Shown here: in pieces, positions 113 through 4,485 of the stretch
How the letters are laid out: each line of letters starts with the position of its first letter
How positions within the stretch are numbered: position 1 is the first letter of the stretch
Source: Bacillota bacterium
Lineage (GTDB): Bacteria > Bacillota_I > Bacilli_A > Acholeplasmatales > Acholeplasmataceae
Assembly (NCBI GenBank): GCA_006226985.1
Contig: SBGC01000050.1
Location: 1-11,166 of the forward strand
Length of the DNA stretch: 11,166 nt
Direction: 5' to 3'
Program-made: the position numbers and the translations under genes
Notes under the pieces: generated by a model
Database searches by the model: none
What the model was told of the DNA's origin: nothing
Seen by the model: the letters and a program-made list of their open reading frames with translations, nothing else

Positions 113-835
113 CTATTCAAGTTCTACATTGTGGTAAACATCTTGAACATCATCAAGCTCTTCTAACATTTGCATTAATCGATCAAATTTATCCACATCA
201 TCTTGTGTCTCAAGCTTAGTCCCCATGATAGGTAACCACATGATTTCTTCAGTTGGCATATCAAGATCTGGATTAACATCATAAAGCGCTGTGCGAATAG
301 CATTGAATTGCGATGCATCGGCGTATAAAGTGACACCTTCTTCATCCGATTCAATGTCAGTAACATCAAGATCGTTACCGATAAGTATTTCTAAAACTTC
401 ATCTTCTGACATCCCTGGAATCGTGAATACTGCTTGGTGATTAAACTGATGTAATGCTGATCCTGAAACACCTAATTTACCACCTGTTTTTGTAAAGCAA
501 TTTCTAACTTCAGCAATCGTACGATTGACATTATCCGTTAAACATTCAACGATAAACATTGAACTTCCTGGACCAAATCCTTCATAGCGTGCACTTGTAA
601 AACTATCTTCTTGTCCGCCTTTAGCTTTATCGATATTTCGTTTGATAATATCTGCAGGAATTTGTTCCTTCTTTGCTTTCTCAATGATTCTTTTTAATGA
701 TTGGTTTGTGTCAGGATCTGGTGTTCCTGATTTTGCAGCGAGATAAATTTCTCGACCAAATTTTGCATAGAGTTTACTTTTGACAGCAGCTGTTTTAGCC
801 ATCGCTACCTTTCGTACTTCAAATGCTCTTCCCAT
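113..835 (-). CDS. yebC: YebC/YeeI-family protein (TACO1-like translation or regulatory factor)
   Basis: This 240-residue protein has the normal length for the YebC/PmpR/TACO1 family. Seen: an N-terminal segment MGRAFEVRK, then AKFGREIYLAAKSG (residues 25-37), YEGFGP (84-89), TDNVNRT (100-106) and a C-terminal DVYHNVEL (232-239). It matches the Bacillus YeeI-like branch better than the MAGHSKW branch typified by E. coli YebC. Family knowledge: members were first annotated as transcriptional regulators. More recent work on bacterial members and mitochondrial TACO1 points to a ribosome-associated role easing translation of difficult, proline-rich stretches. Cytoplasmic. The ATG lies three bases after the ppa stop, with AAAGGA in the ppa 3' end as a plausible Shine-Dalgarno, so the two are very probably one operon. 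The family assignment is secure; the exact role is not visible here. Confidence 0.95.
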   Translation of the reverse strand: MGRAFEVRKVAMAKTAAVKSKLYAKFGREIYLAAKSGTPDPDTNQSLKRIIEKAKKEQIPADIIKRNIDKAKGGQEDSFTSARYEGFGPGSSMFIVECLTDNVNRTIAEVRNCFTKTGGKLGVSGSALHQFNHQAVFTIPGMSEDEVLEILIGNDLDVTDIESDEEGVTLYADASQFNAIRTALYDVNPDLDMPTEEIMWLPIMGTKLETQDDVDKFDRLMQMLEELDDVQDVYHNVELE

Positions 836-838
836 AAT

Positions 839-1378
839 TTATACGTCCTTTACTCCAAATTTTTCTTCATAAGTTTTAATACTTTGTGCAATGATTTTCT
901 TAGCTGCTTCTGGTCCTTCAATATCCAATATGTATGTTTTTTTACCTTCAAGTGATTTGTACACTTCAAAGAAGTGGCCCATTTCAGTTAAAAGGTGTTG
1001 CGGTAATTCATTAATATCATTATATTGGGTTAACGATGGATCACCAAATGGGATGGCAATGATTTTTTCATCAATTTCATCTGAATCAATCATTTTCATC
1101 ACACCAATTGGATAACATTGAACAATCGATAACGGTTCTATATCTTCTTGGCATAAAACAAGGACATCAAGAGGGTCATTATCTCCAGCATAAGTTCTTG
1201 GAATAAATCCATAATTTGCTGGATAGTGAGTTGACGTAAATAAAATACGGTCTAAAATAATCATACCAGTATCTTTATCTAACTCATATTTTTTCTTACT
1301 ACCTTTAGAAATTTCGATACATGCAATAAATTTATCAGGTTGAATTCTTGATTTATCGATATCGTGCCATATGTTCAT
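839..1378 (-). CDS. ppa: Inorganic pyrophosphatase, family I (soluble)
   Basis: Hydrolyses pyrophosphate to two phosphates in the cytoplasm, pulling forward nucleic-acid synthesis, aminoacylation and phosphoribosyl transfer. The protein is 179 residues, typical for bacterial family I enzymes. The family signature DNDPLDV is at 66-72 and supplies the metal-binding aspartates (D66, D68, D71). Other active-site equivalents are K30/E32 in KYE, D98, D103 and K105 in the DSDEIDEK stretch, and Y140-K141 near the C-terminus. The start ATG has a good AGGAG eight bases upstream. It is the first gene of a two-gene operon with yebC. Unlike many Bacillus species, which use the unrelated family II (DHH) enzyme, this genome has the family I type. 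Upstream lie a purine riboswitch aptamer and an intrinsic terminator, which is unusual for this gene. Confidence 0.97.
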   Translation of the reverse strand: MNIWHDIDKSRIQPDKFIACIEISKGSKKKYELDKDTGMIILDRILFTSTHYPANYGFIPRTYAGDNDPLDVLVLCQEDIEPLSIVQCYPIGVMKMIDSDEIDEKIIAIPFGDPSLTQYNDINELPQHLLTEMGHFFEVYKSLEGKKTYILDIEGPEAAKKIIAQSIKTYEEKFGVKDV

Positions 1379-1407: not shown

Positions 1408-1425
1408 ATTTTAACACTTTAGTGT
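1408..1425 (-). promoter_or_regulatory. Possible ppa promoter with a flanking inverted repeat
   Basis: On the minus strand TGTTAAAAT is an extended -10 (TG-n-TAAAAT, -10 at 1408-1413), which would start transcription about 23 bases before the ppa ATG. The -35 region is the T-tract of the preceding terminator and is poor. An inverted repeat ACACT-TT-AGTGT (1414-1425) sits directly upstream of the -10 and could be a small operator. If real, ppa can be transcribed independently of the riboswitch leader. Confidence 0.4.
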
Positions 1426-1456
1426 AAAAAAAACACCCTAATTATTGGGTGCTTTT
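1426..1456 (-). terminator. Intrinsic terminator between the riboswitch leader and ppa
   Basis: The minus strand has GCACCC-AATAATTA-GGGTGT followed by eight T residues (1433 down to 1426). The core stem is CACCC/GGGTG (1434-1438 with 1447-1451), extended by A/T pairs around one mismatch. The plus strand also reads as a hairpin followed by TTTTT, so it may work in both directions. It is placed where a riboswitch-controlled attenuator would be, about 110 bases after the aptamer and 47 bases before the ppa start. Confidence 0.8.
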
Positions 1457-1462
1457 TATGTT

Positions 1463-1496
1463 CACATAGAAGTTGATGCTGCTTATCCACTATGTG
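1463..1496 (-). other. Stem-loop in the ppa leader
   Basis: CACATAG (minus strand, from 1496) pairs perfectly with CTATGTG (ending at 1463) across a 20-base loop. It lies between the switching elements and the terminator. It may be part of the expression platform, but no clear overlap with either the terminator or the aptamer pairing was found. Confidence 0.5.
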
Positions 1497-1504
1497 CCCC
1501 TTAA

Positions 1505-1537
1505 TTTGTATTTAAATACCTTGTATAAAGGCTACGA
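1505..1537 (-). promoter_or_regulatory. Putative switching elements of the purine riboswitch
   Basis: Downstream of the aptamer, three minus-strand segments are complementary to the aptamer or the RNA 5' end. TCGTAG (1537-1532) matches CTACGA of the P1 3' strand, including the ligand-reading C. TTTATAC (1529-1523) matches GTATAAA at the P1 5' side. TAAATAC (1514-1508) matches GTATTTA at the predicted RNA 5' end (1643-1637). The last two pairings are nested around the aptamer and could form together. They suggest a competing fold that opens P1. No folding energies were computed. Confidence 0.45.
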
Positions 1538-1568
1538 ATTACAAAACAACCCCTAATATGCTTAATAA

Positions 1569-1633
1569 ATCGTAGTCGCGATGTAAGGCATCGCGGTAGA
1601 AACGTTATCTCCGTTATAGATAATTTATACGAT
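1569..1633 (-). promoter_or_regulatory. Purine (guanine-class) riboswitch aptamer
   Basis: Read on the minus strand, the 65-base segment has the three-way junction of purine riboswitches. P1 is ATCGTA/TACGAT (1633-1628 with 1574-1569). P2 is TTATCT/AGATAA, closing a seven-base loop ATAACGG. J2/3 is the hallmark GTTTCTACC (1603-1595). P3 is CGCGAT/ATCGCG with loop GCCTTAC, followed by GACTAC. By alignment to the B. subtilis xpt aptamer, the spacing between U47, U51, the L2 GG pair (37-38) and position 74 is conserved. Position 74 is C (plus-strand 1575), which reads guanine or hypoxanthine; U there would read adenine. U51 is kept, arguing against the Mesoplasma deoxyguanosine variant. The loop-3 CC is shifted one base from the usual position. 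It is oriented toward ppa-yebC. Confidence 0.85.
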
Positions 1634-1649
1634 AATTAAATACAAAACC

Positions 1650-1678
1650 ATTATAGCAATTATTCATACATTCGTAAA
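1650..1678 (-). promoter_or_regulatory. Promoter of the purine-riboswitch leader
   Basis: The minus strand has TTTACG (1678-1673), a 17-base spacer, and a perfect TATAAT (1655-1650). The predicted start is near G1643, about 10 bases before the aptamer P1 stem. It lies just after the folD stop codon, so the leader and ppa-yebC form a unit separate from fhs-folD. This is one of the best sigma-A-type matches in the window. Confidence 0.8.
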
Positions 1679-2554: not shown

Positions 2555-4141
2555 TTAATCTAATAAATTCCCGTCAGCATCTACTTTCATTTCTAGTGCG
2601 CGAGGTGTTTTGTTTAATCCTGGCATAACCATAATACCTTTTGTAAGAGCTACTAAAAATCCTGCCCCTAAAGAAGGTCTAATTTCTTGAATATTTAACG
2701 TGAAATCTTCTGGTAATCCATGAACATTTGCATCACCAGTTAATGAAAGAGGTGTCTTAGCCATACAAACAGGTAGGTTCCAACCTAATTTTTCATATGA
2801 TTCTAATTGAGCAAGTGCTTTTTTAGAGAAAACAACATCTTTTGCTCCATAAATCTTTTTAGCGATTTTTTCAATTTTAACTTTTGGCAAGTCAATTTGA
2901 TCATAAATAGGCTTGAAATGAGATCCTTTTTCAGCAATATCAACAATGATATTTGCTAAATCAACCATACCTGCTCCACCTTCACTAAATCCTTTACATA
3001 AGGCAACTGGATGATTATTTTCTTTTGCCCAATTCAGCATATAATCAACTTCATCTTGTGGATCGGTGTAGAAATGGTTAACTGCAATGACATATTTCAT
3101 TCCAAAGTTTTGAATATTCGTTAAATGTTTAGCAAGAAGTGGTAATCCTTTGATCATAGCATCTAAATTAGGTGATGAAAAATCTTCTGCACCACCATGT
3201 GATTTTAATGCGCGAAGTGTAGTAACAATGACAATAGCGTCAACTTGTTTATTCAAATAGGGCATCTTAAGATCTAAGAATTTTTCCATACCTAAGTCTG
3301 CGCCAAATCCAGCTTCTGTCACGGCATAATCCCCAAGTTTAAGCGCTAAGCGAGTCGCAACTATCGAATTACATCCGTGAGCGATATTCGCAAATGGACC
3401 TGCATGAACGAACGTTGGAACACCATCGACTGTTTGAACAAGGTTAGGATTCATTGCTTGTTTGAGTAATAATGTTAATGCATCAGCTCCACCAAGGTCA
3501 GAAACATAGAGTGGTTCTTGATTTTTGTTATAACCAATTAAGATACGATTTATTCTATTTTTTAAGTCAACTAAGTCACGTGATAAAGCTAAAATAGCCA
3601 TAATTTCTGATGCTGCAGTAATAATAAACCCATCTTTACGTGTAGGTGTTTCAATTTCACGAAGTGCACGATCGTTCATATCCATGCAACGTTTCCAAGT
3701 CACTGTTTCAATGTCTAATTCATTACCTTGGAAGATGTGGTTATCAATGAGAGCTGATAAAAGATTATTTGCTGCAGTTATGGCATGTAAGTCGCCTGTA
3801 AAATGCAAGTTTATTTCTTCAGATGGTGTAATACTGGATTTCCCACCACCTGTAGCTCCACCTTTAAGACCGAAAACAGGTCCTAAGCTTGGCTCACGTA
3901 ATGCTAATACAGGATGCTTTCCGATATGTTTAAGGCCTTGAGTCAAACCTATTGAAATCGTTGTTTTACCTTCACCAGCCGGTGTTGGGTTGATTGCTGT
4001 TACTAATATCAATTTGCCATCAGGTTTGTTTTCAAGTCTCTTTAAAACGTTAAGATTAATCTTAGCTTTATCAAAACCATAGGGTATGCACTCTTCTTGA
4101 GTTACGCCCATTTTTGCGCATAAATTCATAATATTTTCCAT
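2555..4141 (-). CDS. fhs: Formate--tetrahydrofolate ligase (10-formyl-THF synthetase)
   Basis: ATP-dependent ligation of formate to tetrahydrofolate gives 10-formyl-THF, the formyl donor for purine rings and initiator Met-tRNA. Seen: the P-loop TPAGEGKT at 53-60, EPSLGPVFGLKGGATGGG (83-100) and the conserved GDLHAI stretch near 116-121. The protein is 528 residues, slightly shorter than the roughly 555 usual in Firmicutes, mainly through a shorter N-terminus. The start is supported by AAGGAG six bases before the ATG, so the short N-terminus looks real rather than a mis-start. It is the first gene of an operon with folD. It has its own promoter and, further upstream, a candidate structured RNA with its own terminator. 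Together with folD this gives a formate-driven one-carbon route. Confidence 0.97.
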   Translation of the reverse strand: MENIMNLCAKMGVTQEECIPYGFDKAKINLNVLKRLENKPDGKLILVTAINPTPAGEGKTTISIGLTQGLKHIGKHPVLALREPSLGPVFGLKGGATGGGKSSITPSEEINLHFTGDLHAITAANNLLSALIDNHIFQGNELDIETVTWKRCMDMNDRALREIETPTRKDGFIITAASEIMAILALSRDLVDLKNRINRILIGYNKNQEPLYVSDLGGADALTLLLKQAMNPNLVQTVDGVPTFVHAGPFANIAHGCNSIVATRLALKLGDYAVTEAGFGADLGMEKFLDLKMPYLNKQVDAIVIVTTLRALKSHGGAEDFSSPNLDAMIKGLPLLAKHLTNIQNFGMKYVIAVNHFYTDPQDEVDYMLNWAKENNHPVALCKGFSEGGAGMVDLANIIVDIAEKGSHFKPIYDQIDLPKVKIEKIAKKIYGAKDVVFSKKALAQLESYEKLGWNLPVCMAKTPLSLTGDANVHGLPEDFTLNIQEIRPSLGAGFLVALTKGIMVMPGLNKTPRALEMKVDADGNLLD

Positions 4142-4280: not shown

Positions 4281-4312
4281 AAATAAAAAATTCAGTCCCC
4301 CCGAACTGAATT
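4278..4312 (-). terminator. Intrinsic terminator of the RNA upstream of fhs
   Basis: On the minus strand AATTCAGT and ACTGAATT form a perfect eight-base stem (4312-4305 with 4296-4289) around the loop TCGGGGGG. It is followed by TTTTTTATTTTTT. The plus-strand reading has only CTTTATT after the stem, so the minus direction is favoured. Confidence 0.85.
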
Positions 4313-4450
4313 CTTTATTCAAGCACATGGTTTGTGCTAGCCCCGTGAAGAGGTTTCCCCGAGTCCAAAATCTTGGAATAAATCCATGCCCCCATTTTTA
4401 TGAGTCTTTTGGTTTTTTTCAATCAAAACGAAAGCATCTCATAAAAATCT
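4285..4450 (-). ncRNA. Candidate structured RNA of unknown family
   Basis: A unit of about 165 bases is bounded by a perfect TATAAT promoter and a strong intrinsic terminator. Seen on the minus strand: a perfect 10-bp 5' stem (4447-4438 with 4404-4395). A long-range helix pairs 4382-4372 with 4323-4314 (seven pairs, a one-base bulge, three pairs). Local hairpins are AGCACA/TGTGCT (4338-4322) and TCCAA/TTGGA (4377-4364). Four G-tracts of four to six bases occur in about 100 bases of otherwise GC-poor sequence. No open reading frame with a plausible start is evident. I looked for ZTP, THF, T-box, SAM, glycine, SRP RNA and tmRNA hallmarks and found none. The length is close to 6S RNA, but the 5' and 3' ends do not pair with each other. 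It could be a free-standing sRNA or an attenuator leader for fhs-folD. Confidence 0.6.
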
Positions 4451-4456
4451 AATTCT

Positions 4457-4485
4457 ATTATACTTGGGTTTTTTTGTTATAAACA
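4457..4485 (-). promoter_or_regulatory. Promoter of the RNA upstream of fhs
   Basis: A perfect TATAAT lies at 4462-4457 on the minus strand. The -35 is weak: TGTTTA at 17-base spacing or TTTATA at 15. The A-rich spacer follows the aminotransferase terminator. Predicted start is near 4450, immediately before the 10-bp stem. Confidence 0.6.

Follow-up and report, generated by a model that had tools for sequence, protein, structure and literature searches.

A guanine-class purine aptamer ahead of the pyrophosphatase gene ppa in Acholeplasmataceae, in a leader complementary to a C-rich small RNA

The window, as we call the whole 11,166-nt stretch of DNA analysed here, carries a purine aptamer on its minus strand. 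Upstream of the aptamer and on the same strand lie folD (1693-2541) and fhs (2555-4141). The genes after it are ppa (839..1378, minus strand), encoding a 179-aa family I inorganic pyrophosphatase (PF00719, E 4.3e-60), and yebC (113..835, minus strand), encoding a 240-aa yebC/TACO1 family protein (PF01709), the two that a preliminary description of this DNA had named. A terminator and then a probable extended -10 promoter of ppa stand between the aptamer and ppa. The window's genus is the one that contains Peloplasma aerotolerans, and its genome holds a second purine aptamer ahead of a PF00860 permease gene. Elsewhere in the window, the minus strand ahead of fhs looks RNA-like at 4281-4460 and may include a terminator (AATTCAGTTCGGGGGGACTGAATTTTTT); this stretch matched no Rfam family at gathering. 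In one relative, G011 (L072 2260-3468), ppa and yebC form a single 402-aa open frame, either a real fusion or an assembly frameshift.

By cmscan against Rfam, RF00167 (Purine) matched at full length at 1652-1553 of the minus strand with 61.6 bits, above the gathering threshold of 37 (E 5e-9), and it is the sole Rfam family to reach gathering within the window. The aptamer with its flanks thus occupies 1553..1652, with the P1-P3 core at about 1633-1569. In alignment, the pocket and junction are intact, with GUUUCUACC, GG in L2, CC in L3, C74 (in GACUACGA) and a closed P1 of six pairs; the pocket bases U22, U47, U51 and C74 are those of the guanine subclass, and L3 is 5 nt long where the Rfam consensus has 7 nt. 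C74 and U51 are invariant across 21 aligned ppa leaders and, by eye, are kept in the G022, G030, G035 and G006 leaders, while the junctions of the G009 and G004 aptamers are decayed. The preliminary description had proposed a full guanine-class aptamer on this strand and an Infernal search with Rfam to check it, and the search upholds the proposal. The presumed ligand is guanine. Just upstream, at 1650..1678 (minus strand), lies the probable promoter of the riboswitch RNA, TTTACG and TGnTATAAT with a 17-nt spacer and TG ahead of the -10 box. The strong promoter described earlier stands as a site with 10 of 12 consensus matches, whose TTTAC and TATAAT-like boxes recur in the ppa leaders of relatives; its mere presence says less, as promoter-like sites in the region number 26 against 20.6 expected, near chance.

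The placement before ppa is widespread in the family. In a first set of 61 genomes (the window's own and relatives), a purine aptamer is present in 53 and ppa in 60; in the family-wide set of 88, the figures are 55 and 85. Of the 85 family genomes with ppa, 26 have the aptamer immediately ahead of that gene, or 26 of 57 excluding genus g7: 18 in genus g1, four in g15 (G072-G075), two in g4 and one each in g12 and g13. Gene order is folD-aptamer-ppa in all 26 wherever the contig is long enough. Being kept in 26 genomes, the placement is not a single-genome accident. No purine aptamer match occurs in genus g7 (29 small genomes), and none occurs at ppa in the eight genomes of genus g11 (Acholeplasma, including laidlawii, oculi, granularum and equifetale); the synteny that the preliminary description proposed to look for in Acholeplasma relatives therefore holds for the 26 and is absent from these eight. 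Fourteen ppa loci lacking the aptamer, rescanned with the full Rfam, gave nothing at Purine gathering, and by eye the G004 and G026 ppa leaders contain decayed aptamers. Among 120 genomes sampled from the class, 79 have an aptamer and 83 a PF00719 match; among the aptamers listed, only those of this family (G000, G022, G031) stand just upstream of ppa. Among the papers searched, none combines 'purine riboswitch' and 'inorganic pyrophosphatase', and the pairing appears to be previously unreported. These two results bear out the earlier view of ppa as an unusual target. Purine aptamers also lie ahead of a PF12974 (phosphonate-binding type) ABC transporter in G020, G036 and G029 (L137, L140, L143), an assignment from a Pfam run on the G020 protein only.

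In an order sample, 7 of 10 f5 genomes have the order folD-purB-flavodoxin-aptamer-permease-ppa-yebC. Together with the decay of some g1 leaders (G004, G026), this arrangement would fit a relic, an aptamer left before ppa by loss of the intervening permease gene and regulating nothing particular. We consider this highly improbable, given that the pocket, an alternative fold, a terminator and a site complementary to a small RNA (sRNA) are conserved in most of the 26, with two-sided changes.

Between its inferred start and the U-tract, the leader RNA would span 1427..1644 (minus strand, as are all features that follow) and measure about 218 nt if terminated. At its 5′ end is the 5′ strand of a closing helix, P0 (UGUAUUUAAU, 1635..1644), followed in order by the aptamer, AGGGGUUGUUU, UUCGUAGCC, a UUAUAC element, the P0 3′ strand (UUAAAUACA, 1507..1515), a GGGGAUARGUARCAUC hairpin and the terminator. 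Folding and alignment together place both P0 strands as well as UCGUAG and UUUAUAC (1523..1537), which are complementary to both P1 strands and would form the alternative, ligand-free fold. A predicted antiterminator strand, AGGGGUUGUUUU (1543..1554), pairs with the terminator 5′ arm, and its 3′ part takes part in the competing anti-P1 helix. The hairpin contains the sRNA-complementary site AUAGUGGAUAAGCAGCAUC (1475..1493; consensus GGGGAUARGUARCAUC), identified by motif scan and pairing. Next to it, UUAAGGGG (1497..1504) is a possible second sRNA contact, its complementarity to a second C-rich stretch of the sRNA (CCCCUUAA) being directly visible. An intrinsic terminator, AAAAAGCACCC-loop-GGGUGUUUUUU, lies at 1426..1457. 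The leader has the makings of a terminating one across the set: a terminator was located in 26/26 ppa leaders (positioned manually in G010), and competing pairing in 21/26. Scanning the 3′ half of the leader with cmscan to E 10, in the window and in G019, returned only Purine at gathering. A second aptamer in this half was entertained as a candidate and dropped once the motif appeared antisense at the tpx locus.

3′ of the terminator, a conserved TGnTAAAAT box precedes the ppa ribosome-binding site; in the window it reads as an extended -10 element, TGUTAAAAT, at 1408..1416. As the box also occurs in relatives without the aptamer, ppa is most likely served by its own proximal promoter, judging from alignment by eye. 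The preliminary description took ppa to be the target of the aptamer. An aptamer with its own promoter before ppa-yebC, kept in 26 genomes, speaks for ppa as a target; with a terminator, a second promoter and an sRNA site in between, its status as the main or only target is not established.

To predict the logic of the switch, we folded unfinished transcripts, with the P1 bonus set by hand and the P1-absent state imposed through energy penalties. In the ligand-free fold, downstream sequence takes up both P1 strands and the structure is closed by P0; once P1 has formed, the partner of AGGGGUUGUUU is the terminator 5′ arm. This shift in arm capture averages +0.38 over the 26 ppa leaders, versus +0.02 with shuffled linkers. 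It is at least +0.17 in 21/26, and in 14/26 none of 20 shuffles reached the native shift. Five leaders (G006, G009, G022, G030, G035) have no shift, and they are the same five that alignment A1 (21 leaders) omits for linkers that differ or are decayed; folding kept all 26. Permease leaders behave in the opposite way, with 21/21 negative and a mean of -0.44, a control that is only partly specific as their shuffled linkers alone give -0.30. These 21 remain from 28 listed, seven having been dropped by hand (G018, G021, G024, G032, G034, G040, G045) because the contig was cut or the start or terminator was not reliably found.

The permease (PF00860) leaders have features of their own. In L123, L128 and L146, for example, the terminator arm has GUAGAAAC, complementary to the J2/3 pocket strand GUUUCUAC, and in the ligand-free fold the antiterminator seemingly uses the pocket strand of the same aptamer. 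At the 5′ end, GUAUUCA (as in L147) has a match, UGAAUAC, past the terminator and shortly before the ribosome-binding site; this corresponds to P0 of the ppa leader.

In the alignment of 21 ppa leaders, two-sided changes occur at 24 pairs of the ligand-free structure, versus 11.7 in shuffles; P2 and P3 account for 12 of the 24 and the sRNA-site hairpin for 6. The antiterminator helix, with 94.5% of cells paired, has no two-sided changes in these leaders; it is conserved, not covarying. In full-length folds, where the P1-forbidden state left the P1 bases unpaired and a 120-nt frame was used, the mean terminator probability is 0.93 and 0.93 in the two states, and the permease controls likewise show no difference. 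The ON logic thus rests on the unfinished transcripts and the hand-set P1 bonus. Taken alone, we consider a guanine ON switch in the ppa leader, as modelled here, somewhat favoured. The opposite arrangement, a guanine OFF switch in which the ligand promotes termination before ppa, would be in keeping with guanine riboswitches being mostly OFF, with the OFF-like folding of the permease leaders and with the failure of either state to prevent the terminator in the 120-nt frame. As P1 is predicted to sequester the terminator arm in 21/26 ppa leaders and the ligand-free fold to free it, we judge an OFF switch quite unlikely.

For the ON switch, we propose that an RNA made on the minus strand from the aptamer's own promoter would either end as the ~218-nt leader terminated before ppa or be read through into ppa-yebC. 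Without ligand, the P1 strands would pair with UCGUAG and UUAUAC, leaving the terminator arm free, and RNA synthesis would stop. With guanine bound, P1 would form and AGGGGUUGUUU, now freed, would capture the terminator arm and permit read-through, an ON behaviour that would depend on GGGGUUGUUU. Read-through would then supplement ppa made from the proximal promoter.

The partner of the leader site came from a scan with the hairpin motif. Allowing up to one mismatch in 20 genomes of the genus, the motif was found in 32 places, versus 7 for the reversed pattern: 12 in ppa leaders, 13 antisense between topA and tpx, and 7 elsewhere, which puts 25/32 at two conserved loci. The tpx-side strand holds a conserved C-rich RNA gene of about 106 nt adjoining tpx, with a promoter-like TTTACA, three hairpins, two C-rich single-stranded stretches and a terminator, and with two-sided changes in 10/20 consensus pairs. 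Compared with Rfam (L262 1250-1700, to E 5), it has no match at gathering, the best scoring 25.9 bits against 60. We searched the literature and found no paper title on an Acholeplasma sRNA. A model built from 13 sequences matches in 41/88 family genomes and in 24/100 of the order sample, which overlaps the family set. The 13 were found via the complementary motif, and their pairing is to that extent selected; the other genomes are free of this. In 19 of the 41 sRNA-bearing family genomes no aptamer precedes ppa, so the sRNA must serve other roles as well. Genus g10 (L322, L313, L314) has a diverged tpx-side RNA with UUUCCCC for UAUCCCC and no aptamer before ppa, and the sRNA extends to one genome each in two further families of the order, G050 and, as a weak match, G045 (L323, L324).

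The leader site, about 18 nt long, and the tpx-side sRNA pair in 22/22 genomes that have both (20 in one pairing set, with G011 and G072 from another), the extended and conserved complementarity looked for in a sponge. For ten of these 22, the sRNA was picked up only by the model, the complementary pattern having missed it. In 21 of the genomes, G012 being left out, two-sided changes in trans keep the pair at positions 1, 4, 5, 6, 8, 11 and 17 of the 18-nt core (7/18); one mismatch occurs in the pairing of G005 and of G015. In the same 21, cognate pairs average -29.5 kcal/mol versus -26.3 kcal/mol when partners are swapped (0/5000 permutations, relatedness not removed), and the cognate partner ranks first in only 5/21. 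Against the consensus seed, the 22 leaders range from -18.9 to -34.2 kcal/mol, the permease leaders from -4.9 to -11.9, and shuffled segments average -9.7. Pairing in trans best accounts for the site. When it is blocked, the predicted switch is little changed (0.73 to 0.72 with P1 formed; 0.32 to 0.40 with P1 absent), and in folding the site is equally accessible with or without P1, so these predictions do not link guanine to the sRNA. The aptamer, its synteny and the pairing with the sRNA are well supported.

Loss of the sRNA tends to go with decay of the leader. No sRNA match was found in G004, G006, G009 or G010, where little beyond the terminator remains at tpx, save for a remnant of the second C-rich stretch in G010. 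A four-protein tree divides these into three losses within the genus, in G004 and G006, in G009 beside G014, and in G010 beside G018 (support 1.0, 1.0 and 0.78, respectively), and they accompany decay of the aptamer and/or the site. The G004 aptamer is under threshold, that of G006 scores lowest of the ppa aptamers (42.9 bits), the G009 junction is broken, and the G010 leader has lost the GGGG of the site with its pocket intact. Similarly, G033 has an sRNA remnant only and no aptamer, while its genus sisters G072-G075 have both. Some observations count against a strict rule: G006 retains -23.4 kcal/mol to the consensus seed despite losing the sRNA, G011 has both RNAs with an aptamer that scores low (49.3 bits), 19 genomes have the sRNA without an aptamer at ppa, and G030, a genome 86% complete in which no tpx ortholog was found, has the aptamer and no sRNA match. 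In G026, complementarity is kept although the aptamer is decayed. A search for a diverged sRNA predicted from the G030 leader found none, only the leader itself matching fully and the next-best place lying inside apparent coding sequence.

We propose that a guanine-gated leader pairs with, and probably sponges, the C-rich sRNA, together with conditional read-through into ppa, and we give this combined reading an even chance. The dedicated ~18-nt site would pair with the C-rich sRNA beside tpx, and the leader would most likely be a partner or sponge, not a mere target, since blocking the site leaves the predicted switch unchanged and upkeep of the leader seemingly depends on the sRNA. The direction of sponging, as well as the effect on ppa, we infer. 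A bolder form, which we hold tentatively and think less probable than that, makes the terminated leader itself the effector, a sponge for the Acholeplasmataceae C-rich sRNA, with guanine shifting output from the short sponge to ppa mRNA. Alternatively, the leader could be a guanine riboswitch of the ordinary kind controlling ppa. The sRNA would then be a further regulator of the same gene that binds the leader of the read-through mRNA and alters its decay or elongation. The leader always stands before ppa (26/26), the sRNA predates the leader site and is more widely distributed (41/88 genomes), as fits a leader that became a target, and PPi is a product of purine salvage. Such control would miss ppa transcripts from the proximal promoter, which do not contain the sRNA site; furthermore, the site lies ~100 nt upstream of the ppa start, clear of its ribosome-binding site, and blocking it leaves the predicted switch unchanged. 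We regard the leader as mere target as rather unlikely.

Several known systems share parts of the proposed leader pairing and sponging. With the guanine subclass of RF00167 (xpt-pbuX type) it shares the aptamer fold and pocket, a promoter of its own and an intrinsic terminator; it differs in having ppa behind it, a predicted ON logic, a 5-nt L3 and an extra sRNA-complementary domain. In the adenine ON riboswitch of the pbuE type, ligand-stabilised P1 prevents the terminator, as is predicted here, but the ppa leader has C74 instead of U74 and captures the terminator arm with a separate antiterminator strand. EutX, reportedly a riboswitch-containing sRNA that responds to B12 and sequesters a protein, is alike in placing the fate of a non-coding RNA that acts in trans under riboswitch control; here the partner would be an sRNA. 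In Bacillus subtilis, RosA is a sponge of the C-rich sRNA RoxS, likewise a case of RNA base-pairing with an sRNA in a Gram-positive lineage; the part of that report consulted does not describe RosA as a riboswitch leader (PMC8216469). In the 5′ UTR-derived sRNA sponges of E. coli, a terminated leader fragment acts as the sponge, as we propose for the ppa leader; unlike in that proposal, the sections consulted name no riboswitch leader as a sponge (PMC7815308).

If true, the proposed mechanism would join a metabolite-sensing riboswitch to a base-pairing sRNA, two layers of control usually studied apart, in near-minimal, wall-less bacteria whose sRNA control has been little studied. It would add a guanine ON switch with an unusual target, and its parts are all short RNAs accessible in vitro. 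It would also give a first clear partner to an sRNA that spans most Acholeplasmataceae outside genus g7. Should the terminated leader itself be the effector, purine supply would be tied to all the targets of the sRNA, and pyrophosphatase would be a secondary output.
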